Assembly (NCBI RefSeq): GCF_000699445.3 | Contig: NC_067199.1 | Location: 36,936,902 to 37,000,901, forward strand | Length of the DNA stretch: 64,000 bases | Reading direction: 5' to 3' | Source: Schistosoma haematobium | Taxonomy: Eukaryota > Platyhelminthes > Trematoda > Strigeidida > Schistosomatidae | In this document: positions 1 through 53,248 of the stretch, one piece after another | Position numbering within the stretch: position 1 is the first letter of the stretch | How the letters are laid out: each line of letters opens with the position of its first letter | Position numbers and translations under genes: made by a program | Notes under the pieces: model-generated | The model's input: only the letters and a program-made list of their open reading frames with translations | The model's database searches: none | What the model was told of the DNA's origin: nothing

Positions 1-362
1 TCTTGCCAGTTATTGCAACACCTTTTGGTATGCGTAAATACGTACTGTTGCATACACTTGGTAGTATTTTATTAATTGGGAGTTTTTCATTTCTTTGGGG
101 CCCATGGAATCACATTAGAAGCTTATTTAGCACTGAGCGCCTGTTTTTTACTTTAAGTTATTTAGTCAGCTTACTTGGTGGCTTATATGCTGTGGTTGTG
201 TGGCAGAGTGCCGTATTTTCAGCTTTGGCCTTGATCTCCCAAATTTGTTTAGTTGTATGGCAAATTATTACCACCATACCTGGAGGTAAAATTGGCTTGA
301 GCGCTTTCTTGCGTGGTAGTTTGTGGACAGTAAAAGGGATTTCTAAAGGTCTACCTGTTTAG
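1..362 (+). CDS. SFT2-family vesicle transport protein, 3' terminal exon (partial)
   Basis: The reading frame is open from the window edge to TAG at 360-362, giving about 119 codons. It shows the SFT2 pattern: a basic residue followed by a hydrophobic segment (TLGSILLIGSFSFLWGP), a loop with LFSTERLFFT, then three further hydrophobic segments and a PGG motif before a short polar tail. SFT2 proteins are four-pass Golgi/endosome membrane proteins linked to retrograde vesicle fusion. The family assignment comes from this pattern, not a search. The N-terminal cytosolic part and first membrane segment would lie in exons upstream of the window. The first ATG visible in frame (position 30) is internal, so no start is assigned. 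SFT2D3-like is possible because of the PGG, but the paralogue is not resolvable here. Confidence 0.75.
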   Translation, partial: LPVIATPFGMRKYVLLHTLGSILLIGSFSFLWGPWNHIRSLFSTERLFFTLSYLVSLLGGLYAVVVWQSAVFSALALISQICLVVWQIITTIPGGKIGLSAFLRGSLWTVKGISKGLPV

Positions 363-2424
363 TTATTTTTGCGTTACATGTTGCTCCCTGTAAAAAAGGA
401 CTGAGATATTTTTCTGACATTCTGTCGAGGTGAATTATGCTAGCCTCATCACTAGATTTTATTGATTTTCTAAAGACGGTTTGAATAATAATTTATTTAT
501 ATGCAATATCATACTCGCTTTGTTCAGATAAAACAGAAGGGTAAATTTGTAAGAAAGTAAACCGTTGGTTCGGATTTTTCTTGATGAATCTGTTACGGAT
601 AGGTAGTTGAATAATCTATATATCAACCGACTGTAATACTAATCGTTATCGTTTGTTGAGTAGTGTTAACTATCCAGAACCTTCGCTGGGAAATTTGTCC
701 AGTAACTGTTAAGACACGTGACAGCCAAAGACCTGACATCCTTTATACTGTATCTTATGGCGTGTAAGCATGATCTACTGGTAAGCGATGATCTCGTTTT
801 TCCCGACGAATCCCGAATACTGATGAACGGCGTCTGTCAGATTGAATGTATATATTTGTTCATAAGAGTTTTGTTTCACTTGTTGAAGTTCGTCGTAGGA
901 TATTTGGGATATTTAGATAGTCAAAGTGTAAATAGTTTGATTAAGATGGAGTGGTGTACACGTGATTCAATATTACAGTGTTTAACTGTCACAAATATGT
1001 GTACCTCTATCAGGGAAACTTGTAAACCTTCGGAATGCTGCAGAATTTAATAAAAGGGGAAAACATTAAAACAAATCGCTTTTAATAACATCATTGCCCT
1101 CGAGTCCAGCGTCGCTTATCTCACAGTACTTAATTTTACCGATCTGAGCGAGATTTCCACTTAATAGTTCACATATAGTTTTCAAAAACTGGCTACAGAA
1201 CAAACCAAAATGCAGTAAAATCTGGACAACCATTCAGTGGTGTTTTTCATCTAATAAATATCATATTTGAATAGCCAATAGTCGGTGAAACTCTGATCAA
1301 CATAAGTCTGGGTAAACAGTTTTTAAAGGTATCATGGGTAAATTTTAATATATGGAAAACAGATAATTAAGTTTGTTAACTGTACAACGCGTAGTATTCC
1401 TCTTTGTTGTTAACAAAGCAAAAACCTCAGTAGAGTCCTAATCTTAAATTACTTGGAAATTCCAAAGACTGACCCAATGGAAATGCCACTAAAATCAATT
1501 TTAGGAACTTTCAGTCCTTCATTACCATACAACTTTCAAATAGAGAAACTAAGAATTATAAAGCAGTTCAGATGGTGGACTTTCAAGTGCGGCATTCATA
1601 TTAAATGGTTTAAGATTATGACATTTAATGTTAGTTAATGCCGACTTTTTCATTGAACTTGTTCATAATATAATATATAGGTAGGATATCCACGACTTAG
1701 AGGCTTCGATGGGAATAATAGTGTACCATATATGGGTTTATATATTAAACACTTAGTCTCACGCTTGTGTATGGGGAATATTGGGTTTGTGATCAAAGAA
1801 CTTAACTCTTAGGAATCCATGAGCTCATCGCTTCATTGTTTGTAGCCGGGTAGTGTGGTGAGCTCTCATATCAAAAGCTTTGTTCAAAGCTGAGTACGTA
1901 AGGCTGTGATTAGAAAATTAGTTACTTTTGTTATCGTTCGCTTTTTGAGCACTTCATTGATGTAAAATTGTGAAATGTGTTGTTACGCTTCAACAATAAG
2001 CAAATGGATTAGCTTTACTCAGATGCGAATAGCCAGACCAAAAATTATGCAAAACAGCCTATTGACAGTTTATAAAAATGTGTCGAGATATGCTTTTTAG
2101 TTTCATTTCACTGACAAAAAAACTAGGTTAGGAAATTTGCTTAAAAAGTCCAGAAGGTATACCCTAGTGGTTTTCTTAAATATATCCCAGTGAATAATGC
2201 CTCTGATGAGGGGCTAAGTTGGCGAAACTCATCTGAAGATTATAGTTCCGTTTCATAGTATGTGTTACAGAGCTTATCATGAATAATCAATCATAAATAA
2301 AAATGAAAAGATTTTGAGCTATATAATTTTTAAAGGAAATGACATTAACGATATCATGGGCAAATGCTTAACACCAAGGTGTAGTAGTTAACTATGAATT
2401 GCTTGAGTTTTATTCATTCAGACA
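363..2424. other. No gene recognised; 3' flank of the SFT2 gene
   Basis: AT-rich sequence that probably includes the 3' UTR of the upstream gene. AATAAA-like hexamers occur near 1,050 and 1,250. The longest open frame (718-1,050) has no recognisable domain or typical coding pattern. A short hammerhead-like string at 2,193-2,220 is discussed under rejected items. Confidence 0.5.
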
Positions 2425-5400
2425 ACTTACGCATGTTCCCTCTCATGGAGGAGCATAGGTCTCGCACTAGCATTCAGCATCGGACTCTCAGTTGCTATTG
2501 GTCCTTGTGTCTGCTTCCGATTCCCGTCTCAATTTGTCCTTTGGCCTTCCTCTTTTCTGTTTACTTTCAAGATTCCAAGTTGGCGCTTGCTTCGTGATGC
2601 AGTTTAATGATTTCCATATTGTATATTCTATCTACTCCCAACATCTTCCTAATCTCTTCACCCGGAAGCTGATTTGTTCTCTACCACAGTAGGCTATTAC
2701 TGATGGTATCAGGTCAACGGACATTGAGTATTTTGTGTGGACAATTGTTTATAAACACTTGTACCTTTTTGATGATGGCTGTAGTAGTTCTCCAAGTTTT
2801 AGCTCCATACAGTAAGACTGTCTTGACGTTCGTATTGAAGACTGTTTCTTTGATGTTAGTTGACAGTTGTTTTGAGTTCCATATATTCAACTGTAAGAAT
2901 GCTGTTCTTGCTTTACCAATCTTCGTCTTTACGTCTGCATTAGATCCTCCTTGTTCATCGATGATGCTGTCCAGGCATGTGAAAGATTCAACATCTTCTA
3001 GAGCTTCTCTATCGAGTGTGGTTGGGTTGGTGTTCTCTGTGTTGTGTTTGAGGATATTGATTTTTCCCTTGTGTATGTTGAGTCCTACTGGTGTAAAGGT
3101 TTCTGCCACATTGACTGTCTTCACCTGCATTCGTTCGTGTGTGAAATAGAAAGGTCAGATCATCTGTGAAGTTCCATATATTCTAGTTGATTCCGAGCTG
3201 TCCATTGTATTCCTTGTTTCCCCTCCGATGTCGAGGTCTTCATAATCCAGTCAGTCACTAGAATAAAGAGAAATGGAGAGTAAACAGCCTTGTCTGACTG
3301 CGATCCCTACTTGGAATGTATTTGTCAGCTGCCCGCCATGCACGCCTTTGCACTGTAGTCCGTCGTATGAATTCCGTATAATATTGACGATTTCAGGTAC
3401 ACTATAGTATTGAGGTTTCCATAATATTCTGCTTTCCACACTGTCAAACTTTCTCACAGTCAAGGATGCTGATGTTTAGTGACGAGTCGTGCTCCATTGA
3501 TTTCTCAAAAACGATGCGTAATGGTGCAATTTGGTCTGTGTACGACCGATCTTTACGGAATTTAACCTGATTATCTGGAAGTTGGGCGTATATAGAGTTT
3601 TTCGTCCGGTTTACCAACGCTCTGTTGAAAACTTTTCCTAGTACCGATAATAGTGTGATTCCTCTCTAGTTGTTTCATTTACTCAGATATTTCTTTGGTA
3701 CCTTGATGAGGTGTCCCTCTTCCAATCTGTCGGCATTTGTTCCTCCTCCCAAATCTTCCTGGATAAAACGTGGAGCATGTTTTCATTTAATTCTATGTCT
3801 GACTTCAGTGCTTCAGCTGGTAAATTATCAGGTCCTGTTGCTTTTCCGCTCTTGATTTGTCTGATGGTCATCCTGACTTTTTCGACCGTTGATGTAGTGA
3901 CACCTAGAGGGAGGTCTGTAGGCGCTGCTTCGGTGTCCGGTGGATTCGATGGAGCTGGTCTATTCAAGATTTCCTCTGTCCTTGAATTTCAGTGATTGGC
4001 TTGCCTTTGTACTTGACCGGTCTCTCTGGTTTACTATATCTCCCCACCAGTTTCTTCCCCGTGTCATATAGTTGTCTCATATTTCCTCTTGCACCTTTTC
4101 ACACTGTCGTTGCTAGGTCTTCGACATATTTCTGCTTGTCAGATCTAATGCTCCTTTTCACTTGCTTTTTTGCTTCAGTGTATTCAGCTTGTACCTTGAC
4201 TTTCTCTGTTCTTATTCAACTGTTGTTAATAGTTGTCTTGTCCTTTCTTTCTTTAATCTTGTTCAGGATTTCAATGGAGATCCGTCCCTTATGATGGTGC
4301 TTTTTGCTGCCCAGAACCTCCTGAAACTTTGAAGTTAGTGATTCTTTGATCCCTTTCCAGTTGTCCTCCATAGTAGTTTCTTCTTCTTTGAGTAGGTTTT
4401 GTAAGGCCTGTAACCTGTTGTTGAGAGCTGTTCTGAATTCGTTGAATTTGTCAGTATCTCGAAGGAAGGCTCTATTGAACCTTTGTGATGGTATTTACCC
4501 AGTTGTCCAGTGCTTCTTTAGCTTCAGTTTCATCTTGGCAACCACCAGGTGGTGATCCGAAGCTATTTCAGCTCCTGTCCTGGTTCTCACGTCTTCCATT
4601 GCCCTTCCGAATGTTTTACTGACATAAATATGATCTATCTGGTTCTCCGTGGTTTGGTCCGGTGAGATCCATGTAGCTTTGTGTATGCGTTTGTGTGGGA
4701 ATATTGTGCTACCTATAACTATTTTGTTGAATGCACATAGATTTGCAAAACTCTCACCATTTTCGTTTCTTTCTCCAAGTCCATGCCATCCCATGATTTT
4801 TTCATATCCAGTGTCGTCCATCCCGACTTTGGTGTTTAGGTCCCCCATCAGGATGGTCAGTTTTTCCTGGGTACTTCGCTATGATTGATTGGGGTCCCTT
4901 ATAGAATTGATCTTTAATGTCGTCATTGTTATCATTGGTGAGTGCATAACATTGAATAACATTCATCGTGATTCCCATCTTTGTTTCGAAGGATGCTTTG
5001 ATGATCCTGGGTTCATGAGATTTCCACTCAATGAGTACATTTCATGCTTCTTTGGACAGCATCTGAATAACAGTATGTGCAGAGCATTTTCTTCGTAAAT
5101 AGAGTAAAGCAGGATCTCTCCTGAATCTACTTTTTTCTGTCCAGCTTTGGTTCAGTGGGTTCCGCTGATTTCGAGAACCGCCAATTTTTATCTCCTCATT
5201 TCCTTTGTTATTTGACTAGTTCTTCTGGTCTCCCACTTTGTCCGGAAATTCCATGTACCTATAATAATTGTTGCTCTGGTTGTTAGAAGGGGCGTTGGCC
5301 TCGTGACTTCCGAAGAATCTCGGCTTTCATCGCGTGACGTCATAATTCTTCCTTCAACTCGAAGGGCAGAGTTTAAATGGACTAATTTGTTTAATCTGGT

Positions 5401-5520
5401 TGGTCGTTTTTTAGCAAGGTCTTTTCTACGGGACCGGGTTGCCGACTTTATTCCCAACCCTCCTCATTTACCCGGGCTTAGGACCCGCAGTAACTATAGA
5501 AGAGCTACAGGTGGAAATTG
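2425..5520 (-). mobile_element. Near full-length but decayed RTE (SR2-like) LINE
   Basis: Minus-strand pieces occur in the order of an RTE polyprotein. The endonuclease start (ATIIIGTWNFRT, about 5,260) is followed by endonuclease core motifs GDLNTKVG, NQIDHIYV and SDHHLVV (4,848-4,495). Next come an N-terminal RT segment with SGKATGPDNLPAE (3,967-3,683), an RT segment with VRQGCLLS (3,463-3,251), and the C-terminal region (3,130-2,714). The RT box reads FTDD instead of FADD near 3,155, and there are many frameshifts and stops. The same C-terminal region is better preserved at 34,250-35,225. The 3' end lies near 2,425, where a degraded version of the family's 3' terminus is visible without a clean repeat tail. 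Confidence 0.85.
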
Positions 5521-5523
5521 TTT

Positions 5524-5782
5524 AGGCGATAATTTATGGATGGCTTTTGGGGTATAATAAAGCAGCCCTGAGAAACTTCGACCACTAACCAGGGTCACAA
5601 TAGGGCCATAAATTAGTTTTGGGAACTAGGGTCTTGAGTTATGTTTATGGTTTTCATCAGAAACTTGTATCTGTGATAATGTTAAAATGCTGTTTAGCCA
5701 TATGCGTTAGTGAATTTCATGCAAAAATCTAAGAGACATCCTCTTAAGTTTGATTGGTTCGCCTGTAAATCATAGTTCCGCC
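5524..5782. mobile_element. MITE-like TIR element, old copy
   Basis: The termini resemble the family TIR (GAGACTATAATTTATGGACG): the left end reads aggcgataatttatggatgg and the right end is its imperfect inverted complement (cctgtaaatcatagttccgc). The interior matches the other copies around the ttttcatca...aaaatctaagag stretch. It begins within a few bases of the 5' end of the RTE element. Confidence 0.55.
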
Positions 5783-6928
5783 TGGATAAACATAAAAGTC
5801 TACTGAGAGAAAAAATGGTGCTGAGATACTTCCCAAGGGCCGTTCTTTGAGATTGAATAATCAGTCTAAACTGATCACAATTTCCATTTATTCCTGATAG
5901 GAAATATAGTTGTGTTAATAGTCTTGAAGTGATTAACGAAAACTTATACTGTCAACTTTATCGTATTTATGAAGAACAAAATATTACACAGTTTTTCCCA
6001 TCGATAGATTTGAATCGAATAACAAGGACGAGAGTAGCACGATAATGTGGGTTTATTCATTTTATTTCAACAGTACGGTTTCCTATTATCTGCTCAGTGG
6101 TGGATATTGATTTTATAAAATCATTCAACACTATCAATAAGCAGACGACATAAGACATTGCGTTTTACTCAAAGCATCGCTACCAAAACATCTGAACTTA
6201 ATTTATGTACTCAAGAGTATACTATTTCTAGTCTTGTAATATTCTTGTGACCTCACTCTCTGGCAATTAGTTGCGCGACAGCTCATTTCGCATTTGGAAT
6301 CACAAGTTCATTTTTGTAGTCCCTTCTTATGTCTGAGATCTGCTAATTTTAATCTTAAAGCCAATCCTTTTTCTATAGTTGGCATTATATGGCACTTAAC
6401 ATTATTTTTTTCAGTAACATACTTTCATCCGCTTTTAAAACCTGATAATTTAATTCAATTTAAGATGGTTTGGATTATCCGGTTGTAGATTTTTTGACTG
6501 AAATCTCATCAATCTTGGGTGGCATATTAGGTTGAATTAATTCATCTGCTACGTCCATTCTGTTTGCTCTTAATTTTCATGTAAATTTACCTGCATCTTT
6601 ACTCGCACAAAAATAATGTGTTCTCATAGATTAGTGAGGCCATACGGTACTTTAAGAACTATGTTTTAGAGGTAACATTGCCTTATCGTTAAATTATTCA
6701 ACGCTGGACCAAAACAAGGAATTTATTATTGTGTATGTTTGATAAATGCGTTTAATTAGTTAGTCAATAATAACGTGGTCAGTTTGTGATAGATTAAGAT
6801 AGTTGGTAAACTTGTGTAATCTAGTCATACGTTTTGTCTTCAATGATCTATTGGATTGAAAGATACACTAGCTAAGTAAGCTATAATTGGTAGAACTCAT
6901 GCAGAATTTCATTGGTGCGTTTCTGTTC
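5783..6928. other. Intergenic, no feature recognised
   Basis: AT-rich sequence between the repeats and the micro-exon gene promoter. I see no open frame with protein-like composition (6,294-6,488 is open but unremarkable). Confidence 0.4.
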
Positions 6929-6936
6929 TATATAAG
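6929..6936 (+). promoter_or_regulatory. TATA box of the micro-exon gene
   Basis: TATATAAG lies 40 bp upstream of the ATG at 6,976. A start site about 25-30 bp downstream would give a very short 5' leader. No other TATA-like element is as well placed. Confidence 0.5.
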
Positions 6937-6975
6937 TAAATCAATTGTTGTCATCAACATAATCTCTAATACGAA

Positions 6976-9900
6976 ATGTTTTCCTGTAGGGTACTCATTA
7001 TAGCTTCGTTTGTGATCTTCCTCTTAGGAACAGGTAAGAAATAATGTTAGTATTTTTGAGTTTGGTCATATTTTTATTATTATGATTAGTGTACATAGTA
7101 TTAAATATATTGGTACTTTATAATATTACGCTTCTGAGTCAACATCATATACGGAGTCTTCTCTAACTTATTGGATCTTGTCTTTTCGGTATTCAAATGA
7201 TATTTCACGCTTACATTAAAGATGTAGCGCATAGGTTTTACAAATAAGTGGAATTTTCAAGATCAGGTTGATGACAGAAAATTTGTACAAGAAAATCAAG
7301 ATGATAGAACATTCATACACTGTTAAAATCAATGAGAACAGGTCGTTTTATGTGTTCCATGCAACACCGAGACGTTTTAAACCATAAACAACATATCTAA
7401 TTGATTGATTCAGAAAAACTGTCTGGCAACAAAACCTATTGACTTGATGAGAAAACACCAATATCAAAATGTCAATATAATCTCAATGATATCATCATCA
7501 TAATCACCATTCATTTTTGTACTCGATTTTTTCATTTGGGTTCAATGAAGATAACGTTTAAACAAGTTGAAACAATGATAATTCTATTGTAAACCAATCT
7601 CTGACGATAATTTAACCGTTAGATATCTTTTCGTATGTAAGAAAGAATTAACAATTTAACGTAGGGAAAAGATATTGAAAAAAATCTAAATTATCCCACA
7701 TAAAGTGGTATGCTTTAAGTTGGTTCGGTAATGTTATACATTGGCTTTTTTCACAGTCGCCATATCATAAACAAAAACAGTTCTTGAGTTTATAGGTGTC
7801 ATTACTAAAGTTTGATTTGGTAATTTCAAGTGAATTGAGCATTGGCTAGATTGTTATTAATAAGAAGATAATATATTTTGTAATATCATAATGAGTAGAA
7901 AAATTAAGTTTTTTGAATTTTCTGATGTTTCGTAACTCAGTGCAAGTCACTTCTTCAGTGAATAAATAAAAATAATAAAAAAGTGGCTTACATTGAGTTA
8001 TGAAACGTCAGAAATACAATTTTTTTACTCATTGGGATATAACAACAAAAATATATTGAAAGGGTTTTTGTGGGTATTATAGTAATTTCAATGGTTGAGA
8101 TCATAAGTCAATTGAAGCTAGACCACCATGGAAAACCTGAAAGCACTGGGCGACCGTTTCGTCCTGGTATGGGACTCCTCACCAGTGCGCATCCATGATC
8201 CCCCACACGCGAAATTCGAACCCAGGACCTATCGGTCTCGCGCGCGAGCGCTTAACCACCAGACCACTGAGCCGCCATCCAACGGTGTTAATGTCTAACT
8301 TCAACCAATCCACGAAATTGCACAACAAATCCATCAGTATATTCAGTGAGTTACTATCTCACAACAGACCCGGTTGAACTCCAGGTTTTTCATGATGGTC
8401 TAGCTTCAATTGATTCGTGATCTCAACCATTTAAAAAATATATTTATTATTAACTCTTTACCTAATGCTCAACTGATTTGAAACTACTATTGTAAATTAC
8501 TTGATTAACCCATCGGATTATTTTCATTTTTGATATAACTCGATGAAACAAGTCATTGATTTGTAAATAAAGAATTTTGAAATTCCAATGACATAATTCT
8601 TCGCTTTATGATAGTTAACTGTAGTATAATTGACCGTAAGTGCTTCATAAATATTTGTTTTTATTATATATGAGCTATGATTCTCACAAAATAATTAAAG
8701 AAAACATGAAATGGTAACTTCTTAGGTTTAAGTGAACGACAAAATTATTTATTTATTTGAACATATAAATATTAGTATAAGGGGGCAACAGATATATATG
8801 TACTATACAAAACAATGAGAATGGGAAGAGGAAAAGAATGTAAGGTGCGTATAAGGAAAAAAAGAACAATAACGACTACAGATTAGTGTATGGTAGTGTA
8901 GTATTATTAATAATAATAGCAATAATCATAAGTGAGGGAATCGGAAAGATACAAAGAGAATTCTTTCAGTTAAGGAAGTTACAACCACTTTTTATGAAGA
9001 AAGCAAAAGCAGGTTACAAAAGGGTCGCCACTGGCTTCTATTCTGAGCGATATCTGATAACGTCTCTAGCCACTGTGTTACACCATCTCTCGGACCCAAG
9101 CCAGGGAGTCGTGAAGGACCAACAGAAGCTAGCCGTTTGCAGCTTTCTTTCATACCACCAAACCATGTCATACTCTGACCACAACTCCACTTTTTCAAAC
9201 CAGTCGCAGCGTCGTCAAATAATGCACGACGTGGAATTCTCTGGGACGACATTAATAGAACATGTCCAAGCCACAGAAGTCTTATATAAACTAGTTTTGT
9301 TTTTGCAATAAAAATAAATATTTTGATGAAAATTTTTTTTGTTTTACAGAACTAAGTGAGTACTGTTTACTTAAATTTCTTTAAAAGTACTATGTAGTTT
9401 GTTTCCCTGTAGTTCGATCCCATATACAAAGTTTACATATGATTAGAAGGGGTTTTGTGGAGATTTTATTAATGTCACTAGTTGAAATCATGAGTCAATT
9501 AAAGCTAGACCACCATGATTTCAACTATTGAAATTACTAAAATCTCCACAAAACCCCTTCTGATAATAATCATCTGCTCACTAATGACTGACTTCAAGAT
9601 GCATTTCCTGGAGTTGTAGTGAGAAGCCGTTACCAGTGGAGTTCAACTAGGTCTGTTGTGAGATATCAGCTCACTGAAGACAATGGTGTACGGTGGCGCA
9701 ATTTCGTAGATCAGTTGAAGTTAGACATCAACACCGTTGGATGCCGAGTCAGTGGTTTAATGGTTAAGCGCTCGCGCGCGAGACTGATAGGTCCTGGGTT
9801 CGAATTTCGCGGGGGGAGCGGTATCGTGGATGCGCACTTCTGAGTAGTGCCATACTAGGACGAAATGGCCGTCCAGTGCTTCCAGGTATTCCATGTTGAT

Positions 9901-12900
9901 CTAGCCTCAATTGACTCATGTTTATACATGGATTTTTTTCTTTTATAAATTACCAACAGAAACTTGAAACCATTCATTTCCATTTTTGTTTAAAATCAAG
10001 GCATTAAAAGTTCTCTTTTCCGAAAAAGAGAGAGATTATAATGTAGTAAATTTTAATGGAATTATTATCATACAAAAATATGAAGGTTTAACTTATAAAA
10101 AAAAATAATTTCTTAGATTCATATTAGACAAGAAATAAACATCTTATAGTGTTTTCCATTAGAGAAAATATGTAAATACTGACCTTCGATTCCCCTTAGA
10201 GAATCCTATTACAGTTCCTTTTATTTCATGTTATAGTTCACTATTATGTAAACGAAATATGTTTTTTTTTATACCAATTTTACTATTGGTTCTTTTCAAA
10301 TTTCCAATTATAAACTTTTATGAAGACAATATTGAGGCAATTCGCACAGAATGCACATTTGCTAATATAAGACTGATCAATTTCAGTCCTAAATAACAAT
10401 GAGAAGATACATGTAAATTATATCAAGTTAAATTTTATGAAGATTATAACAATTAAGAATTCAATATCTGTAGTGAACTATACAATATCGTAAAATAGTT
10501 ATAATGGTTTTTACGACTGTTGAATAAATTAAGATTATGTTTTATCATTTTATTTCTATTCTTAATTGAACGAAAAATTGACATTTGTAACCGGTCATAT
10601 TTCAGAATTTCTTAATTATAATGGTTACAAAAATGAAGATTATATGATCGATTTAGACATAATGTAGACCTCAAGGATTGATAAATGGATAAATGACATT
10701 TTCCTCAAGTATCTATTTATAGTTGTTAGTATAGCTGTGTATGCTATTTCTGTTGACAGATATAAGTAGTATGTAACATCAGTCGGAAGTGGAATGCATG
10801 CCTGCAGAAGATTGAAAAGATTCAGTTGAAGGAAACAGAACGGGAAACAGGAGGAAGATGTAATAACGATGGAATGGAAAGAATCATGAAGTATGTAACG
10901 GAGAACTGATGAAAGATGTACAAATGATGTATTTAATGTATGATCTTGACATTTTATGAAAAAACTGTGTAGTTGGTTGTCCCCACCAATTCTTCGTTCA
11001 CTACAGTATTACTTTAGTTCGATACACGAAAGAATTTCACTATAGTTTATTTTATTCTATATCATATTATACCGTATTTTAAATTAATTCATACTTTGCA
11101 GTTGAGTGTGAGTTACTCAAATTTTGTCAAAATAATTTTTCTGGTTTTTTGCGGAAATTCTTATTTTTTTAAAAAAGTAATTTCATGTTGATAATAGTTG
11201 GCTGTTCATCACGGTTAAGTTTCTAAACCTTTTTTTTTAAAAAAACGTACATTTTATAGTTGAATCCATGAGTCAATGAAAGTTAGACCACCATGGAAAA
11301 CCTGGAAGCACCTGACGGCCGTTTCGTCGTAGTATGGGACTCCCCAACAGTACCCATTCACGAACCTGTTCGCGGGATTTGAACCCAGGACCTATCAGTC
11401 TCGCGCGCGAACGCTTAGCCTCTAGACCACTGAGCCGGCTGATATCCAACGGTCTTTATGTCTAACTGTAACCAGTCCACGAAATTGCGGTCAAGCGTTC
11501 GCTTGCGAGACCGATGGGTCCTGGGTTCGAATCCCGCGAGCGGGATCGTGGATGCGTACTGCTGAGGAGTCCCATGCCAGGACAAAACGGTTGTCCAGTG
11601 CTTCCAGATTTCTCATGGTGGTCTAGCCTTCATTGACTCATAAGTTCAACTATTAAATTAATAAAATCTCCACAAAATCCCCTTCTGAAAACTTACATTT
11701 TGTTTTTGAAATGATAAATTCCTCAGGCACTCGGCGTAAGCGATTTTCGAAGTTCTATTTTTCTTTGATCACTGATATTTTCGCTACTCTGCATATAAAT
11801 ATAATTGCATGAATAATTTCTATCATTATAATCATATTGGTGACATACGATCGCTAAACGATTGTATATGTCTGGTGGTGCAATGAAATATCTAAGATAT
11901 ATTATAAACAGATTACATTAAATAATGGAGTTATTGCTTTTGCTTACTTTACAGAATGGAGTAAGACTTTAGAATTAATCCATTTTTCTATTAGTTGTTT
12001 GAATTTTCCCATTGATGTTTAGAACTCAAATTGATAAGTCTCTTATTGGTATATGTTCATCTTGTGCGGATTACCTCGATATTGCCACAAGCTAGTGGCT
12101 ATTTAGACTCAGTAGCTAAGTGGATAATGCAATGCCGTTTGAAGCGAGCGGTACAGGTTTCGAGTCCCGTAGTGAACACCAACTCTGGGATGCGGGTACA
12201 TCCAGCTGACGAGTCCTGAAAAGGACGAGACGCGTGTCTTGGATTCTACTGCTACCCACCATCCATCTCTGCTTAGAAACTTCAGAAATGTTTGTACATC
12301 TTTCAAGTTGAGAACTTGTCTACCATGCATAAAGAATATCAAATACTCATATTCTAGTTTTCAGAGTTAATATGTTTTGTTCAACAAGAGACATAGCTAC
12401 TTTGAAATATTAAGTTCCTAATAACTAGTTAGATTTTCTTGATATGCTTCCTCACTTCAAAATTTACATATTTACGAGAGTTGAAATAATGCTAAACTTG
12501 ATATTCTTCATGTATGTATTCTACACTACTGAATTAGAAGATACATTTGATTCATATAAATGATTTTTTCGAATTTCTATTTGAATAACCGTTATTCATA
12601 GAAATCAAGGGATTTCATGTTTCAGAGGACTCAGTTATCATAACAACAATGACTTATAAAAATACTATCTCTTTATAGTACAAAAAGTTAGCTACAAGTT
12701 TGTGATTATATATGTCTCGGTGATGAAAAGTAAATTAAGGCGGTAAATACGGATTATCATCATTGTATATATAAAAAGTTTATTGATTGTGGTGAACTAT
12801 TCATTACACATGTAATAAAGTGTATCTTGTATGTGTTTGTAGCATTCATTTGTTATTAATTAAATAATAGAGGAGTGTATAGGGATTTGTGAAGATTGTT

Positions 12901-15900
12901 GAGTGTCTTAGTTTACATCAAGGACTGACCTTAGTTAAACAATCATTGGAAAGCAAAAAGCACTAGAAAAATATTCTGTACTTGTATTCGCAACCCCATT
13001 ATGGTCAGTCCATGCTGCAAACTATGAAATCCAACGTTCCTTACAAACTCCCTGTATTAATTATAATCATATGATCATTAGTGACTGATTCCGAGCATCG
13101 AATTACGGAATTCTGTTGAGAAAGCGTGACCAGTGGAGTTTTACTATGTCAAGCGTGAGGCAGTCAATCATCAATAGCAGTGCAAAATAGTTGAGTGATA
13201 TCCCGAATTAACTGAGGTTTTATATGCAAAATATTCGATGTCAGCTTAGTGATTTGAAGTTTAGGCACTCATCACGAGACTTAAAGACTTTTTTTCAATC
13301 CCAACTGTGTTTGTGTGCTACTGAGAAGTCTCATAGTGGGACAGAATATCTGTTCAACTCTTCCTGGCTTTCAGTGGTTTCTAACTAAGATCAGTCATCA
13401 ATGCAGACTACAAAACGAAAATAAGTAGTTGATCACATAAGATCCAGTAGATAAAGTATCCATCTTGTTAATGCAAAGTTGTAATTCCTTCTGTTAAATT
13501 ACTGAAACAAATAAGTCCAGTACAAAATTTGATAATGTAATCAACAGATTTATATTAATGTTTTAAAAAAATCGAAATGATAGACAAAATTAATACAACT
13601 ATAAGCTTATATAATGTAGAGCGAGACTATCAGTCACCTTTGTTTTAGTTTTTAATGCTGTTCATAGAATAAGAATACATTTTATCTGCAGATCCAAGTT
13701 TACTTTATTTATTTAAACCAAATTGAATGTAGAAGTATAAAACATACTTTTGTCTACTACAGTTATCACTAAAATCTTTGATTGGATTGGATGTAAGTTT
13801 AGTATTTCAAAGAAAAGTTATTTGATTATTCAATAAAGAAGTTTTATCATGATCATTTTGTAAAGTTGATTCAACAATCAGTTAGAATTTCTTTTTAACT
13901 TAGAAAATGTAATTTAACTAAGATATAAGAAATTTAGAGAAATATCACTAATGCTTCAATCATGAATACTGGAATCTATTCTTACTAGAAGTAAATCTTG
14001 ACGGAATGTTGAGTTGTATTAAAAAGAAAGAACAAGTCACCTATGCATATTTTAGTTATCTTACAGCGACAAAAACTGCTTAAGCATTCTAACGTTACCA
14101 TGGTTCATGAAAGAATTAAATATGACGCGTTGAACCATGGACCACATATTCTGGATTTACTTACTTACGCCTGTTACTCCCGAAGGAGCATAGGCCGCCG
14201 ACCAGCATTCTCCAACCCACTCTGTCCTGGGCCTTCATTTCTCGTTTCATCCAATTCTTGTTTATTTTTCTCATGTCTATCTCCATTTCCCGGCCTAATG
14301 TGTTCTTTAGTCTTCCCCTTCTCCTCCTTTGGCCTTGAGGATTCCATGTGAGGGCTTGTCTTGTGACGCAATTGGGTGCTTTCCTCAATCTGTGTCCTAT
14401 CCACTTCCAGCGCTTCTTTCTAATTTCTTCCTCCGCTGGGATCTGGTTATGTTCTGGATTTACTGAGAAGTTATCATCTGATAAATTTTTATCTTAATTG
14501 ACTCAAACATGAAAAGTAAAGGCATCTCATCTTAACGTTCCGTTATGTAATACGAAATAACTGTATGCTGTATACAGAGAATGAACGTTGATCAAGTTTA
14601 GGTAACTTAAAGTGGTTTCGCCGATTTTGGTTTAATTTGTAACTTGTATTCACAATATCGTAATCTCATTTGAGGCATCACTGGTAATCGAGGGGTAAAG
14701 GATATCTGTTTCGTCCTAGTGTGAAACTTTCACAGAAAATATGACTCCATCAGAGACTGGACCAGAATCTTCAGATATTGGGAAGAACGCTTAAGCATTA
14801 GAATCACTGGGTCGACATCCAGTATTACAAATTTAACTTCAATCAATCCGAGCTATAGCGAGACAACCATACATTCCCATCGATAACAACTGTTCCACTT
14901 CTGACATGTCTCCATCAATCACAATTTATCAACAGAACTTCAGAAACATTGAAATAAGTCACTAGTGAGCTAACTGTGGTAACTTGACATCGCATGCACT
15001 ATGCTGAGATGTGAGATTGTCGACAGGAATCCCCAGACCAAGTTTTGATGCACTTGGTACTTATTATAAATGTATACCTGTAATTTTGAGGGAGCTGATG
15101 CTCCCCAGTGGATTCGACCCTACATTACCCATCTTAGCAGTCCTAAGTAACACGTTAACAATGAACTATTTCGGAGCTGATGCCAAGTCTTTTAGACTAG
15201 TGGCCACGTAGCAACCTAGTCAATAGAATTCTATTAGGACTACACAAGCACGACTTTAGACATTAAATGGTCGAATGTAGAATTATGAAACAAACTTTCA
15301 TTTACTGCAGTTTTCAGTAGACTCTTTATTGGGAAAGAACGTAAGTTTAGTATTATTTGATCATTACATAAAGAAGTTTTATGATTATCATTACGTAAAG
15401 TCGATTCAACATTCAGTTAAAATTTCCTTTTAACTTAGAAAATGTAATTTAACTAAGATAAAGGAAGTTTGGTGAAATTTAAACACAATACATTTCCAAA
15501 ATGAAAAGAAATTTTAAAAAGAAGCGGATTATATCATTACTGTTACACATGTGACACACAATTATAGCTGATTGATTTACTCATCGAACAAAGAACTGGA
15601 TAATATCAGTAATGTTTCAAGCATGACTATATGAAGAAACCGCATGACTTTTTATGTCATTGATAGGAATCTATTCGTACTAGAAGTAAATCTTGATGGA
15701 ATGTTGAGTTGTATCTAAAAAAAGAAACACGTCACCTATGCATATTTTAGTTATATCAACAACAACTGCTTAAGCATTCTAACGTTACCATGGTTCATGA
15801 AAGAATTAAAATTCTACACTCTTCTTATACATATCAATCAATGCTATTTACATAAATGGTAATAAATGAAATTAATGCTTGAAACAAGATCTTTAGTTCT

Positions 15901-18900
15901 ATTTGAATGTAACAAGAGTGAAAATGAACTTTGCAATGAATCTATAAAAACATTACTGATTTCAATTGTGATAGACATACAGAGAAGAGGAAATGATAGT
16001 ATTATCGATTAGGTGAAACACTGGATTATAAGAAGTGAAACTTATTCTAATTAACTATTCCTCTCCACTTTAAGCAACCGAACATAAGACACTCATAATA
16101 CTAATGTTCTTTAGTCTCTGACAAAAATTACAAATGTTAGCACATTCATCTTTTATCTGATTTAGCTGAAAGAATACGTGGTCCCAAGGGTCCTGACGTT
16201 GATTTATCTGACTGTGAGTACTGAAGTATATATCTATTAATGATCTGGATTTTATTCTTATGTCTTATTTGAAATGATGATCATTCGGTAAAAGGCTCTG
16301 TTTATGTTAGTTCTCACAATCTTTTTTATTGATCGTAAATGATCACTTAAGATTTTGTTGATATTGTCCGAAAAGTTTGCTGTTGAGATTTTTTACTTTG
16401 AAATGAGTCAGACAAAAGTTTGGTAATAAAGCATTAAGAAATCAGTAGTAGCGTCATCACTTTATAATGTGATGCGGTAACTACTAAGCGTCATTCATGT
16501 ACACATGAACTGTTTTATTTATTTTAATCAGTCATGTTTCTATTAGTCTGAAACATATATCTATAGACTGGTTTTCTACGACTGGTTTAAATACTGTAGC
16601 CATGTAGTTAATGGCTTAGAGTCCGATGGGCTTTGTTTACATCTAAGTTGAGAAAATAAATCGATCTATCAAGTTATCTAAGAAATTAAGTTCAGTGCAC
16701 AATATGTTTTATAACCTTTAAATCAGCAAGAAAGCATTTCTGAAAACATAAGGATATTTGAGTCTGTTGACAAATACATGAATCGGAACTATTAATGTAG
16801 TCTATGCTGCTTTTGTTGACAGACATAAGTAGTACGTAACACCAATCGGAAGTAGAACGTTTGCCTGAAGAAGATTAGGAAGGTTTAATTGAAGAAAACA
16901 GAAAATGATTGTAATAACAACGGAATTGAAAGAATTATGAAGCATGTAAAGGAGAACTGAAGGAAGATGTGTAAATGATGTATTTGATGTATGATTTTGA
17001 CATTTTGTGAAAACATTCTGTAACTTGGCATTGAATAGTGAATTGGTTGTCCCTACCAATTCTTCGTTCATATCAAAGAAAGCTGTCAATCTTAGTTCGT
17101 GATGTAATCTTCAATGTCGTGAATTTAATCGAAACCTTCGTTTGTAGCAAATTCAAATATAATTGATTGTTTTAATCCATCTGGATTTGGTAAGCATAAA
17201 AGAAACTTTTATTGGCTTTAGTTCTCGGCTTGTTTTTTGGTGGGAACGAGAGTAAGTTTATTTGCTGGTTGAAATATTCTCAAGTATTGAGCTCAATTCA
17301 TGAATTTAGTCATTCTGCTAGTAATACTATCTTACATAATAATAATGCTAGGAATTTTTATGTCTTGAAACCATCTGACCAATATTATGTGCTAAGTCAC
17401 CAACCAGAATACTGATTACACTCAGGTTTGTTTCGCGCACATTATTTACTCTACAGCTTACTATCTGTGACTTGCCTAATAACACGTCCGACCATCATGA
17501 GTGACCTTGAGTCGACAGCTAAGTCTCCTTCTATGCTGAACCTTGAATCCAGAAGTAGCAGCCAGACTCTACTATATTTATATTCCAATCAGACGTGGTT
17601 TATATACCGGCACACCGGACCACAATACATGATAAATTGAAAAATAACAATTATACATAAACAAACCAAAGGTGACCGTGAATAGGCAAGACTATGACTA
17701 CTAGACTGCTTACAAATTAGGAACAGTAATTAAACATGACAGTAGTTAGTGTATCAATCAAGAGCTTATTATAATAGCGGGATGTATATACAATGTAGTC
17801 TAGTTACTCAGTAATTATACAACAAATTATAATTAGTAATTAATCGAAAGACCAATATCAACTACTATAATATTCGTTACTTTATAGTACTAATAAAGAG
17901 CGGATACTTGAGCAATTTATCTACTTCAAATTAGTTCGTATGACATGAAGTTAATCAACTTATTCTTCTTTTAAAAATGTACCATTGAGAAATGCAGTTC
18001 ATGCTCTTCAAGCCCCATTCCTTTCTACAGACTTTCTGAGTTTAGTGATAATCTGAAACTATCTAGTTTTCTTATCTCGTACATAATCACATTAAAATAT
18101 GCACATAACGTTCACTCAGTGTCAGCGATATTTTATTAACCGTTGTCGTCAAAAATAAACCTGAATAATGGGATTATTTTTTAAAATGAACACAATGGAG
18201 AGATCACATTTATTCCTTCTACTACTTTTGCTATAAGTCTTTAAAGTTATTACTTGAAACTAAGCAGTGATTACAGAGTAAACTCTACAAAGGACTAGAT
18301 ATATAAATACTTTCAGTATGACTTTCAGATGTTCCTTACAATATCACAATACTGAGCATTTCAGATAATCCATAAAGCAGTTAAAATGAACTAAAACAAA
18401 TGTATACTCACTGCAACGAATGTTCAGTAACGATTACTTCAAATATGTATGACTGTGTTTGATATTCCTTTATATTCTAAGAAAACTGTGCAAAGGGAAT
18501 ACTAAATGTATCGACAGTGTTTAATCTCTAACATATATAAGTGTATATAAAACAATAAATTATATCAATTTTGTATTTCACTTAATTTGGAAGGAAAACA
18601 TAATGGTAGAAGGAGCAGAGGCGGTGGTGGTGGCGGTGGTAATGGAGGCCGTAAGTTTAGACATTTAACAGAACTGATGAATCCATTTTTTTATATTCTA
18701 CATATAAAATAAAAGGTGTACTGTGGAAATTGTCACTTATCAAGTTTCATAATATTCTTTTAATTGTTAGTTAATAATTGTTCAGAAATTTATGAATACC
18801 GATAGTTTTTCTATCTCAAAAATTATTTCCCACTGTAAAAACAACCACCAGTCATAATATTACAAGATTACAGATATTAGCATCTACCTTAAGTGTTTGA

Positions 18901-19682
18901 AATAATGGGCCAAATTTGCAAACAAGTTGATTGTTTTTGAAGTTTAGATATATAGTTTTTAACGACTAACCTTTTATGTGGATAACATGATCAGAATCCA
19001 TTTCATTCCGAATTGAGATTTTCCATTACTTCACATTTGTTGATTTAGTTTGTACTTATAGCTGATAAATGAAATGGCACAAGTCCATGAAGTCACTGAA
19101 AAGTGGACTGAGCCATGTTGGTAGGTGTAGACTACCTATTTGAGGACCTCGAGATGATAACAAACGATGGTTAGAGACCCTGAATGTCATGGCTCAAAAT
19201 CGTTTGCAATGGCGCAAGTGTATCCACTGTTTGTGCTCTCCCAAATTCTAATCTTCTGAATTCTTCATATCCCTTATTTTTCTTCCAAATTTATTTCACT
19301 GTATTGTACTCCTTGAATAACATCTTCAAACCCTAATCTTTCCGATTACTGCTTATACTCTTACTACCTCTACCACTACGGAATTTGAGTCGACAACTGC
19401 ATCTCTGTGCTAATGTGGTATAGCAACTCGAACTGATGTACGTACGTACAAAGTTCTACGTTGTTACTGACTGACTGATAAATGAAATCAATTGAAACAT
19501 ACGAAGACAATCGTTTGAAAATAAGGTCATCAAAATGAATTGATTTAATAACTGTGGAATATTAAAAAATCCTAATTCTGGATGGAAGTAGGTGTTGATA
19601 ACGTTATTCATACTGGTGGAATCTCTAACCAATTAGATTATCTATTTCAGAGAATTCAAGAACACAGAAAGTTAAAGTATGA
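6976..19682 (+). CDS. Micro-exon gene (MEG-like): small secreted protein
   Basis: Proposed CDS: join(6976-7033, 9351-9356, 11955-11960, 13763-13792, 15311-15340, 16166-16213, 17148-17189, 17222-17251, 18594-18650, 19651-19682). Sizes are 58, 6, 6, 30, 30, 48, 42, 30, 57 and 32 nt; total 339 nt, 112 aa plus TGA at 19,680. Exon 1 encodes a typical signal peptide ([19 protein letters not shown]). Every internal exon is a multiple of 3, every junction is phase 1, and no in-frame stop appears. Donors are GTAAGA, GTGAGT, GTAAGA, GTAAGT, GTAAGT, GTGAGT, GTAAGC, GTAAGT and GTAAGT. The best acceptors are those at 9,350 and 11,954; the weakest is at 18,593 (TTTGGAAG). Exon 9 codes a Gly run after RRSR. 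Schistosome micro-exon genes have this architecture: a signal peptide, symmetric micro-exons, and secretion from gland or gut cells. I cannot name the family. Some internal exons may be missed or skipped, and the 42-bp exon (followed by a 32-bp intron) is the least certain. Confidence 0.72.
7872..8052. repeat. Inverted repeat with a hammerhead-like motif (Penelope end-like)
   Basis: Two arms of about 75 bp (7,872-7,955 and 7,978-8,052) are imperfect inverted copies separated by an A/T spacer. Each carries a motif read on one strand as CTGAAGAAGTG(A/G)CTT followed by GA(A/G)TTA(C/T)GAAAC, which resembles hammerhead core boxes with one extra A. Similar motifs occur at ends of Penelope-like elements. 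It lies in intron 1 of the micro-exon gene. The assignment is tentative. Confidence 0.4.
8060..8435 (-). mobile_element. Hammerhead SINE copy with inverted 3' tail
   Basis: A minus-strand monomer contains the tRNA-like part (antisense B box at about 8,208-8,222) and the ribozyme region. It is fused at 8,382 to a plus-strand copy of the element's 3' end (8,383-8,435). The join falls on CCAGG, present in both partners, which suggests microhomology template switching. The ribozyme core has C3 changed to G (GTGAGGA), so cleavage is expected to be lost. Confidence 0.8.
8744..9262 (-). mobile_element. CR1/Perere-like LINE, 5'-truncated 3' end
   Basis: The minus-strand frame 9,252-8,992 reads the C-terminal end of a schistosome LINE polyprotein ([11 protein letters not shown], then [15 protein letters not shown], then a short hydrophobic end and stop). 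The 3' UTR and A/T-rich tail follow down to 8,744. The tail resembles that of the repeats at 20,490 and 23,350. It is inserted antisense in intron 1 of the micro-exon gene. Confidence 0.75.
9447..9935 (+). mobile_element. Hammerhead SINE, full-length monomer with 5' foldback
   Basis: 9,447-9,567 is a near-perfect hairpin made of inverted copies of the element's 3' end. Then comes the complete plus-strand monomer: a 5' unique part, a tRNA-like segment with A box near 9,753 and B box GGGTTCGAATTTC near 9,797, a degraded ribozyme (CTTCTGAGTA in place of the first core box), and the 3' tail. The inverted join falls on a shared CATG. Confidence 0.82.
10737..11035. repeat. Interspersed repeat family A, copy 1
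   Basis: Homologous to 16,797-17,078 and more distantly to 24,350-24,620. The shared landmarks are GTTGACAGA(T/C)ATAAGTAGTA at the left and TTGGTTGTCCC...ACCAATTCTTCGTTCA at the right. It has no coding potential. I do not recognise its class. Confidence 0.6.
11256..11687. mobile_element. Hammerhead SINE, head-to-head inverted dimer
   Basis: A minus-strand copy (11,256 to about 11,490) is followed directly by a plus-strand copy (about 11,490-11,687). Both halves keep a tRNA-like B box and the ribozyme region. The plus-half ribozyme has GAAAC changed to AAAAC after stem II. The junction (cgaaattgcgg then tcaagcg) is the same as in the dimer at 40,366-40,790. Confidence 0.8.
12091..12310 (+). 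mobile_element. S-alpha (Sm-alpha) type repeat with hammerhead region
   Basis: A tRNA-like segment contains the B-box-like GGTTTCGAGTCCC (about 12,153). It is followed by a hammerhead at about 12,196-12,250: CTGACGA at 12,206-12,212, stem II GTCC/GGAC, and the stem I half ATCCAG pairing with TTGGAT. The second core box is GAGA rather than GAAA (12,227-12,230), so the ribozyme is probably inactive. The S-alpha family is known in Schistosoma to encode type I hammerheads. Confidence 0.8.
13070..13402 (+). mobile_element. Old, highly diverged hammerhead SINE copy
   Basis: The landmarks of the SINE are recognisable in order: AGTGACTGATT, GACCAGTGGAGTT, a decayed tRNA-like segment, then TACTGAGAAGTCTCATAGTGGGACA replacing the ribozyme and the 3' end. 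Much older than the other copies. Confidence 0.5.
13763..14130 (+). repeat. Duplicated micro-exon unit A (30-bp exon plus downstream intron)
   Basis: The 30-bp exon 13,763-13,792 and about 340 bp of following intron are repeated at 15,311-15,815. Shared intron blocks include TTAACTTAGAAAATGTAATT and AACGTTACCATGGTTCATGA. Unit B contains an extra stretch of about 130 bp. Confidence 0.8.
14149..14463 (-). mobile_element. RTE LINE 3' fragment with 12-bp target-site duplication
   Basis: 14,161-14,451 is the antisense 3' end of the RTE family, starting with its TTACTTAC tail and encoding the [16 protein letters not shown] region with one frameshift. It is flanked by perfect 12-bp repeats TTCTGGATTTAC at 14,149-14,160 and 14,452-14,463. 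This is the expected signature of target-primed reverse transcription with 5' truncation. Confidence 0.88.
14680..14975 (-). mobile_element. Old, diverged hammerhead SINE copy
   Basis: Antisense landmarks are decayed but ordered: TTTCGTCCTAGTGTGAAAC, CGCTTAAGCATTAGA, a TTAACTTCAATCAATCC stretch and GTCACTAGTGAGC. No ribozyme core remains. Confidence 0.45.
15010..15165 (-). repeat. tRNA-related repeat family B, copy 1
   Basis: Matches 41,225-41,362: a GTCGACAGGAA start, a CTTGGTACTT segment, and ...TGAGGGAGCTGATGCTCCC. On the minus strand it holds a good Pol III B box (GGGTCGAATCC, about 15,111-15,121), suggesting a tRNA-derived SINE. Confidence 0.55.
15311..15815 (+). repeat. Duplicated micro-exon unit B (30-bp exon plus downstream intron)
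   Basis: Exon 15,311-15,340 sits exactly between an acceptor (CATTTACTGCAG) and GTAAGTTTAG. The following intron is a direct repeat of unit A at 13,763-14,130. The exon itself is less conserved between the units than the flanking intron. Confidence 0.8.
16797..17078. repeat. Interspersed repeat family A, copy 2
   Basis: Collinear with 10,737-11,035. It carries the same left landmark and the TTGGTTGTCCCTACCAATTC right landmark. The minus-strand frame 17,089-16,802 crosses this repeat and is not considered coding. Confidence 0.6.
17430..17800 (-). repeat. LTR-like repeat family C, diverged copy
   Basis: Distantly similar to 22,595-22,918 and 35,410-35,760. It shares gag-tc-cag segments and a GGTTTATATA stretch. 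Class unresolved. Confidence 0.35.
19075..19475 (+). mobile_element. LINE 3' end (polyprotein C-terminus plus 3' UTR)
   Basis: Sense remnants encode a [19 protein letters not shown] C-terminus (one residue altered by a stop). A 3' UTR follows, ending in the family motif GTACGTACGTACAAAGTTC and an ACTGACTGACTG tail. It sits in the last intron of the micro-exon gene. Confidence 0.65.
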
Positions 19683-20489
19683 ATAGATTTTGAAGATATA
19701 TGACCTTGACTAGTTGAATTCTGAGTATTTAGTAGATTTCAATAGAGATGCATATAAGGAAATAATACAATTTCTCTTTTCTCATATAACATAAATGAAT
19801 GTTATCACAGAAAGGAAACAAAGGAATTAGGAAAAGAGTTCAGCATATTCATGAATATTACACTCTAGAACAAAAATATCCTTATTGCCATGATCAGTAA
19901 AAGCTAATTTGACATTTATCATAACTGATCTTATCATAACCACATTAAAGGAATAAGTGAAGTTTTATAATTGAAAGTTTCTTAGACTTAGTTTCCTTTA
20001 TGAATTTGAATAAGACATAAGTAACATTTGAAAGAGAATAAAATGAATTCATTTGAAAGTTTGCATTAGTTGCTCATGATCTAATTCATATTAAAAAAAA
20101 TGACACAAAAGCGTTTTAGTTTATACATGTATGTGTAAGGTCATTTGAGGATAAATCCAAAAAAAACCAAACAAGTAAAGCAGTAATTACCAAGGTTTCA
20201 AAAACTAATGAGATGGATTATTCAATAATTTTAAATATATTTGATAAGGTTGCATAAGCTCTATGTATTGGGTGAGTGGGAACTGTGCTTGGAAAGCTAT
20301 CTTTAGAATAGATGGAATACTAATTAACCGATGGAATATTGTATAATAATAATTGTGATAATAAATAAAGAGTATATGATTAAAATATCAATTTATCATG
20401 AGGATGACTGATCAAAAGCTGTCTCTTTCTAAATTTATAAGTTTAATTTGAGCAGCATAGTCAAATATTTCCTAACATTTATTGATTTA

Positions 20490-20945
20490 AACACATAAAC
20501 ATTGGTACAAGGAGGCACCAAATATACATGCGCCATACAAATGGCTCGACTTGTGTGAGGGCTGGAATACTGCCCGGGTGCCCATACCGAAGCAGGTAGT
20601 TTCCTTAGGAGGCCACACCCGGAGTCTTTGACCTAGAAGTCTGATCCACAAGGCAGTGGAGCAACGTTAGGAGATGCGGCACCATGGTAGCCGGTGACCA
20701 ACAGTTGGTTCATACGCCACTTGTTCCTTCAGGATTCTGGAGCCCATGTGCACCATTGGTTTGGAATCAGGGTTTTCTGACTCCCATAAGTGGATCCTCC
20801 GTGTCCACCAACTCGGTTAAAGCGCCGGACATTCGCTTTTTGTCCTCTTAATTTCGTAAACAACACTACGCCACGAGAAGGCGGTTAGTATAACTTCTTT
20901 GGTAGTGGCTGTATACGCGTGGTCATGTGGGAGTATTTGGGGGCA
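20490..20945 (-). mobile_element. LINE deletion derivative: 5' module fused to 3' tail
   Basis: On the minus strand the about 400-bp 5' module also seen at 61,880-62,290 and 22,922-23,330 is joined directly to a LINE-type 3' end (tttggtgcctccttgtacc, then an A/T tail at 20,490). It has no EN or RT coding. The layout matches a non-autonomous retroposon made by internal deletion. Confidence 0.6.
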
Positions 20946-22594
20946 AGCTTTTTAACTGTCTTATTTTCAATTTATTTCTTTTGAGTTTCCGAATTACACA
21001 TTCATTACATATCAACGAAGTATTTCCTTTTTGTTGTTTTAAATGTTTGTTTCAAGTTCTTAAGCTATTGTAAGTTCTAAGAACTGATAGATCACCTTCC
21101 AAAAAAAATATCAACTACCGTACTATAATTCTTGTTCAGATTTGACTTCTTTTAACCAAAAAGTAGATTATATTGTTTTTTAAAGGGAACGATGTGATAT
21201 TTCCAATTTCTATTTTCAATTGCCCTATTTTGACTGTATAACACAAACTCCGTTTTAAAAACAAATTTAACACATCTATTACTGGAATAAGTTAAGGGTG
21301 TACATTTTCTTGTTAATCACTAGCTTTTATTGAATTGAATATACTTGCGTTCTAGACAATGATTTTACAAGTATCAAACTTTGGAATTGTTTACAGTTGC
21401 TTTAAGTCATAATTCTATGATTTTATTCAGAATTTTACATAGATATCAATTACAAGTTAAGTGCAAATCGTTGGAATAAACTTCCAAAGAGGTTTAATGC
21501 TTATGGAAAATGATTTAACAATGCGTCAATAGAATGAAGCATTTACAAAGGGATTTTACCAGTGAAAATGAAGGTTTTTTCAGTGATAGTTTTTGTGAAC
21601 CTTTATAAAATCCTAGTTTACTTTTTATTTGATGATCACTATGAAAAAAAGGCTGAAGTTACCTCTCTTATTCATAGTATCCTAGTAATGTATAACATCC
21701 AATACTTTTAACCATTTTTTTCTGTTCATTCAGCTAATGAAAGCTGAAAATCAGAGTGTAATTTTTACTAAGGGGTTTCATTTCAACCTTTTGAATTGAT
21801 AAATAATTCAGTGTCGCTTATCGCAACATGTAGTATGAAAATACAAATATATGAAGAGTATGACTTCAATTGAGTACTCTAATAAAAATTACGCTCTAAT
21901 ATGCAGCGACTACCTATTAAATAAAAGAAAAATTTTTTTTCGAAAATACTAAACATAACACACTGCTCAAATACTGAAAACGTGTTGGATTAACGTCAAA
22001 GGTAGATAGAAGGTAACACAAACTTACTAAAATACAAAACTTTAATAAGTTTCGAAATAATTTAGGACAAAGACAATCATTCCCTACATGAATTCATCTA
22101 TAAATGACCGGAATAAATACAAAACACATTCACCATCCATTGTTATTCTATATTAGATTCCCTATTTTATTAATTATCATTTTCATATATTTGTATTCAA
22201 TGAATTGTGTTTATTCTCTTTGTGATATTATTACCCATAGATTTGCTCCTTAACACAAGATAATACAATCAGAATTCAGTAGTATCATTTTGAATTAAAG
22301 TAGATCAGTATTTATTCTGAACTGAGAAGAAAAAGTTCATTTTATTCAATCAATAATCTGATCAAAATTTAAATGTTAATACATTTGTTGTTTGAGTCAA
22401 TATGGCTTGTTTTGTTTTTAATGGGGGTTAACATAAATGGGGGCATAATTTCGCAGTGAACCAATCAGAATTAAGCGAAATTTAAAAAAAAGCAGGATCG
22501 TTATGATTTTACGTCCGGCTTTTATCATGTGATTTATCCATCAATCAAAATGCGACTTATAAAATCTTCGCACTATGACAAAACCAATGACGTT
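20946..22594. other. Intergenic, AT-rich, no feature recognised
   Basis: Long AT-rich stretch with no domain-bearing frame, no convincing splice-site pairs and no repeat family that I recognise. Confidence 0.4.
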
Positions 22595-34249: not shown

Positions 34250-35289
<1,040 letters not shown>

Positions 35290-53230: not shown

Positions 53231-53248
53231 GGAACCTCCATCATCATT

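Follow-up and report, generated by a model that had tools for sequence, protein, structure and literature searches.

Micro-exons shorter than 36 bp dominate the central coding part of schistosome micro-exon genes (MEGs), according to PMC4671649, which also describes signal peptides that the first micro-exon helps to encode in MEG-26 and MEG-30 and predicts MEG-9, -12, -26, -27 and -28 to be amphipathic. For MEG-24 and MEG-27, liposome binding and red-cell agglutination, possibly via amphipathic helices, are reported in PMC10526429; the consensus motifs given there describe the S. mansoni MEG set and do not define the MEG class. Table 1 of PMC4350168 gives MEG-16 a single copy each in S. mansoni and S. 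haematobium and no copy in S. japonicum, a pattern shared by MEG-7, -15, -23 and -24.

We examined a locus in a 64,000-nucleotide stretch of S. haematobium DNA (contig NC_067199.1; hereafter the window), in which a micro-exon gene had been predicted from the raw sequence alone. The gene proved to be real, but its 3' end had been placed wrongly. Our coding model runs on the plus strand from 6976 to 22253 and consists of eleven exons, mostly tiny, spread over 15 kb. The coding length is 312 bases including the stop codon, corresponding to 103 residues, or to 99 residues without both 6-bp exons, and the splice sites follow GTRAG at ten of ten donors and AG at ten of ten acceptors. Judged by its layout in the sequence, the gene is a MEG, an already known kind of schistosome gene, with a 5' exon encoding most of the signal peptide and central micro-exons that are mostly symmetric. 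Seven of the nine internal exons are micro-exons below 36 bp, contributing 136 of the 241 internal coding bases. The prediction that every internal exon is a multiple of three held for eight of the nine, which run from phase 1 to phase 1 throughout, and failed at exon 10 with its 13 bp.

A possible TATA box, TATATAAG, is located at 6929-6936 on the plus strand, about 40 nt 5' of the start codon. Exon 1 (6976-7033, 58 bp), present as originally described, encodes MFSCRVLIIASFVIFLLGT, which contains the start codon and the hydrophobic core of the predicted signal peptide; its stretch RVLIIASFVIFLLGT is identical in P0001, the annotated S. haematobium homologue (homologues are numbered P0001 to P0008). 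Exon 2 (8615-8635, 21 bp) encodes VNCSIID, residues also found in P0001 and in P0003 from S. mattheei, and likely includes the signal peptidase site. Judged by reading, the signal peptide comprises MFSCRVLIIASFVIFLLGT followed by VNC/S from exon 2, and cleavage would fall after VNC. Exons 3 (9350-9355, QL) and 4 (11955-11960, KW) have 6 bp each and are represented in P0003 and absent from P0001. They are followed by the 30-bp exon 5 (13763-13792), encoding IITKIFDWIG (ITKIFDWIG in P0001, IITKIFDWIG in P0002 and P0003), and by its tandem duplicate, the 30-bp exon 6 (15311-15340, FFSRLFIGKE). Exon 7 (16166-16213, 48 bp) encodes PERIRGPKGPDVDLSD, exon 8 (17222-17251, 30 bp) the related cassette FLGLFFGGNE, and exon 9 (18594-18650, 57 bp) a basic glycine-rich stretch. 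Exon 10 (21057-21069, phase 1 in and phase 2 out) encodes LLKLL, and the 13-bp coding part of exon 11 (22241-22253) adds FAP and the stop codon, which together give the LLKLLFAP tail of P0001, P0002 and P0003. Neither of these two exons was in the original prediction. Seven of the eight phase-1 internal exons originally announced were recovered, from 9350-9355 to 18594-18650, although the first of these starts at 9350 and not at 9,351. The eighth had been left unnamed; exon 2 obeys all the rules laid down for it and has homologue support. The GTAAG or GTGAG donors claimed for the first and internal exons were found in the sequence. Two more phase-1 micro-exon candidates with acceptable splice signals lie outside the model, at 11102-11107 and 17148-17189.

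The gene model was settled by unnamed homologues in the databases; by itself, the sequence is suggestive and not conclusive. A protein database search with the originally predicted protein matched two unnamed proteins. Alignment searches, in which the best 7992 and 7988 candidates were scored, gave, among the matches listed, at least eight homologues in seven species, namely S. haematobium, S. mattheei, S. margrebowiei, S. spindalis, S. rodhaini, S. turkestanicum and S. mansoni (two proteins), and no S. japonicum relative among the eight matches. In line with the original claim, these proteins support a schistosome micro-exon gene whose small product has a signal peptide. P0001 contains a run of 95 residues identical to window exons 1 (from residue 5), 2 and 5 to 11, in which exon 2 joins exon 5 directly; the identity points to S. 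haematobium or a very close relative as the source of the window. P0003 reads VNCSIIDQLKWIITKIFDWIG, and its extra QLKW is exactly the coding of both 6-bp exons: the codons C/AA CTA A/AA TGG A/TT, composed of exon 2, the two 6-bp exons and exon 5, match P0003, in which 26 consecutive residues, beginning in exon 1 and reaching exon 6, agree with the model. The presence of QLKW in P0003 led us to reject our first corrected model, without the 6-bp exons, as the sole form. Two 6-bp exons are unlikely to have been placed by an automatic annotator in the absence of supporting reads, so that their annotation hints at existing S. mattheei RNA reads. PMC8846543 reports RNA-Seq support for the isoforms of its gene set, to which P0001 may or may not belong. 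The raw sequence was thus sufficient for spotting 6-bp exons that are also present in the annotation of a related species.

Since the annotation of related genomes had caught most of the gene, it is better called unnamed than "hidden", as originally described. The protein family carries no name in any of the eight records found. The window-protein forms tried, P0001 and P0002 matched no Pfam family at E up to 1, nor did P0003 at E up to 0.01 or P0005 to P0008 at E up to 0.1; P0004 has a weak Got1 match that falls short of the curated threshold. The exact consensus patterns of PMC10526429 (N-terminal FL..F-X6-W or the red-clade form) are absent from the window protein and its eight homologues. 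A search of solved structures with the originally predicted 98-residue chain as the sole query gave a best E of 0.23. In the literature searched, peptide strings from the window protein had no match, those from the S. mansoni protein matched one unrelated oyster paper, and neither S. mansoni UniProt accession was found. The outcome is a corrected, testable gene model for an unnamed schistosome protein family.

Phase-1 exons with lengths in multiples of three can drop out without shifting the frame, and one gene would therefore be expected to produce several peptide variants by their omission. Exon skipping, part of the original prediction, is supported in S. mansoni and fits the difference between S. 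haematobium and S. mattheei, although it is seen only in these relatives. The sole difference between S. mansoni P0005 and P0008 is VLSLLFGGNGN in P0005 against D in P0008, which fits the loss of one 30-bp phase-1 exon (V = G/TN, N = A/AY, D = G/AY). Phases 0 and 2 are ruled out, since a phase-0 exon would drop out without creating a residue and the loss of a phase-2 exon would retain the V. Likewise, the difference between P0001 and P0003 fits skipping of both 6-bp exons. Within the window model, single omission of any of exons 2 to 7 or of exon 9 keeps the frame, omission of exon 8 alone creates a stop at the junction, and omission of exon 10 shifts the frame; 216 of the 256 combinations of the eight symmetric exons stay open.

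Exons 5 and 6 lie within two copies of a segmental duplication on the plus strand, at 13725-14120 and 15273-15810, the second copy having extra intron sequence. The two exons are mismatched at 11 of 30 sites, compared with 35 of 348 in their aligned flanks (Fisher p 0.00026, for one pair chosen post hoc). Nine of the ten codons differ, all nine nonsynonymously, the first by way of the last base of the preceding exon; over the first 17 bases only, the excess is not significant (4/17, p 0.13). Exon 8 with its flanks also resembles exons 5 and 6, with 51 and 53 matches in 90 positions, and only 1 of 20000 random placements in the window was as good in each test. The duplicated 30-bp exons would have supplied ten-residue cassettes that later diverged. 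Although it concerns one post hoc pair, the divergence between exons 5 and 6 has the look expected of positive selection after exon duplication, and the pair offers a simple way to test for faster divergence of micro-exons than of their introns.

The segment SIIDQLKWIITKIFDWIGFFSRLF, which follows the predicted signal peptide and is spread over five exons (2 to 6), is amphipathic over 24 or 20 residues. Its mean hydrophobic moment is 0.577 when both 6-bp exons are included and 0.610 when both are left out (permutation p 0.0033 and 0.0038). When one 6-bp exon is omitted, the moment falls to 0.367 or 0.376 (p 0.12 and 0.10), with the best 18-residue stretch still at 0.52 or 0.54. Because AlphaFold gave poor models of both P0001 and P0005 (mean pLDDT 46 and 49), unfit for a fold search, the helix rests on the periodicity of the sequence; the P0001 model has a helix over the segment (residues 72-90) at low confidence. 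In S. mansoni, the helix segment is not preserved in this form, and the best 18-mer of P0005 is placed elsewhere, with a moment of 0.50. In the mechanism that we propose, exons 2 to 6 would form the helix SIIDQLKWIITKIFDWIGFFSRLF, hydrophobic on one face and polar on the other, followed by a flexible basic glycine-rich stretch and a short hydrophobic tail, and the secreted peptide would bind host-cell membranes through the amphipathic helix. We favour a secreted membrane-active peptide because the amphipathic segment comes after the predicted signal peptide, and membrane binding because published MEGs of similar make-up have been reported or predicted to act on membranes. On balance, we consider it probable, with modest confidence, that the locus is a working micro-exon gene for a peptide of this kind. 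If the helix reading is right, it would add one more likely membrane-active secreted peptide to a group that may help to process the blood meal or confront host immunity.

The strongest competing explanation accepts the micro-exon gene as real and sees its secreted product mainly as a variable antigen decoy or a binder of host proteins, with the hydrophobic cassettes being incidental. The divergence between exons 5 and 6 and the skipping variants of S. mansoni would suit such a role, and dN/dS of MEGs is high between species according to PMC4350168. However, both the hydrophobic tail and the periodicity of the hydrophobic face (permutation p 0.003 to 0.004) point to membranes, and literature searches with peptide strings and accessions returned no report of a host partner for the protein. 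We regard this explanation as unlikely, although it deserves to be taken seriously. The membrane-binding reading could also be extended into a combinatorial scheme, in which 30-bp exons, each supplying a 10-residue helix cassette, duplicate in tandem and diverge faster than their own introns under positive selection and the pair of 6-bp exons serves as a switch tuning membrane activity. The pair would add four residues, about one helical turn; having both exons in or both out would keep a single hydrophobic face, while one alone would break it. However, random four-residue inserts at the position of QLKW gave a moment of at least 0.577 in 1980 of 5000 trials, so that preservation of the moment by QLKW is not by itself surprising and the idea of a paired switch is weak. 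We hold the combinatorial scheme to be doubtful.

The 3' end separates our model from the chain originally predicted. Seven of the eight homologues end with LLKLLFAP, LLRLFFAP or LIRLFFAR, the type of tail encoded at 21057 and 22241, and S. turkestanicum P0006 is without it. LLKLLFAP is absent as a single exon from all six frames of the window, and the tail is split over 21057-21069, with the donor GTAAG, and 22241-22253; given the donor patterns tried, this is the sole split after exon 9 for which both halves were found. The end of the gene is thus at 22253, and the last internal exon is not a multiple of three. The last exon of the original prediction (19651-19682, plus strand) is open and in phase but without homologue support: its peptide resembles none of the eight homologues, the best having 3 of 10 residues in common, and it was rejected as the terminal exon. 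It follows an AG acceptor in phase 1 and runs into an in-frame stop, as would be expected if the predicted chain were a true alternative transcript ending there, which the homologue tails make very improbable.

The 5' ends of the homologues are less uniform. A start like exon 1 is found in four of the eight, S. mansoni P0005 and P0008, S. turkestanicum P0006 and S. rodhaini P0007; the remaining four models (P0001 to P0004) have different, doubtful 5' ends. Six pieces of the N-terminal extension of P0001 were sought as unbroken strings in the window, and none was found. The start of P0002 is doubtful because its MLVF falls within intron 1 of the window (7044-7055). P0003 (S. mattheei) and P0004 (S. 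spindalis) are fusions with the upstream neighbour, a gene of the Got1/SFT2 family whose last exon lies at 3-362 on the plus strand of the window. These annotated fusion models suggest that the gene order is the same in both species, and the Got1/SFT2 neighbour is likely conserved. A possible alternative acceptor lies within exon 1, at 7028-7033, leaving a 6-bp exon, GAACAG. Such an exon-internal acceptor, suggested by the sequence, would possibly account for the entry of the S. mattheei fusion into the gene, where P0003 reads ATPFG/TVNC.

The gene might also be a decayed one, its exons remaining although S. haematobium has ceased to splice them into a functional mRNA. Several MEG families in table 1 of PMC4350168 are listed for the S. 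haematobium genome but have transcripts in S. mansoni alone. Against this, the reading frame and all splice dinucleotides are intact and the annotation of S. haematobium contains the identical run of 95 residues, leaving decay a very slight chance. The original argument that the signals were hard to obtain by chance fared unevenly. We counted phase-1 micro-exon candidates in 6901-22300 on the plus strand against 60 dinucleotide shuffles and the minus strand under five acceptor filters. The plus strand gave 20 candidates under filter 1 (shuffles mean 9.9, maximum 15; minus strand 9), 13 under filter 2 (7.95, 16; 5), 12 under filter 3 (5.1, 12; 4), 11 under filter 4 (2.65, 6; 1), which is circular as it was set by the weakest of the eight exons, and 7 under filter 5 (1.5, 6; 0). 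The plus strand thus exceeded all 60 shuffles at three filters, but its count was reached by shuffles at the other two, as it might be if splice-like signals had aligned by chance where there is no gene; this explanation is refuted by the annotated proteins of related species, which reproduce the exon order residue by residue, and its probability is negligible. Overall, the observation behind the original prediction is partly confirmed and its interpretation partly supported.

The surroundings of the gene contain several repeated elements. On the minus strand, 2714-3154 and 34258-35289 both encode DUF6451, the second also a reverse transcriptase, and they are likely pieces of non-LTR retrotransposons, one of which sits between the SFT2 gene and the micro-exon gene. 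The region 48836-53534, in which two identical 286-nt direct repeats surround an RT/RNase H reading frame (50578-51531, minus strand), is likely a young LTR retrotransposon. Two perfect inverted repeats, one of 1802 nt (46688-48489 and 60077-61878) and one of 1058 nt (57824-58881 and 58905-59962, arms 23 nt apart), are either recent opposed copies of elements or an assembly artefact.

The S. mansoni proteins A0A3Q0KQX7 and A0A5K4EU45 align with 99% of the window protein, at 39 and 43% identity. They have a similar start (MF.CRVLII.SF.IFLLGT.NC.IID), a basic glycine-rich stretch and the tail, whereas the number of cassettes differs, a second copy of the FLSLFFG plus basic unit seems to be present, and the helix of the window protein is missing. 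By the order of UniProt accessions, A0A3Q0KQX7 falls between Smp_152590 and Smp_159830, and interpolation places it close to Smp_158844, the leave-one-out errors ranging from about 300 to 14,000. MEG-16 is presumably Smp_158890, an identifier without a match in the literature searched. From the accession order, the window gene is possibly the counterpart of S. mansoni MEG-16, whose copy pattern fits the absence of an S. japonicum match among the best candidates scored. MEG-26 of S. mansoni, S. japonicum and T. regenti, as described in PMC5825161, is similar in its signal peptide, short amphipathic helix and internal duplication with repeated exon lengths, and the membrane action reported for MEG-24 and MEG-27 in PMC10526429 offers a possible parallel to the window product. 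With MEGs in general, the gene has in common the signal-peptide exon, mostly symmetric micro-exons and long introns, and exon skipping is seen in a relative; within the class, it may be set apart by having a number of related cassettes of 30 bp and a succession of two 6-bp exons in one predicted helix.
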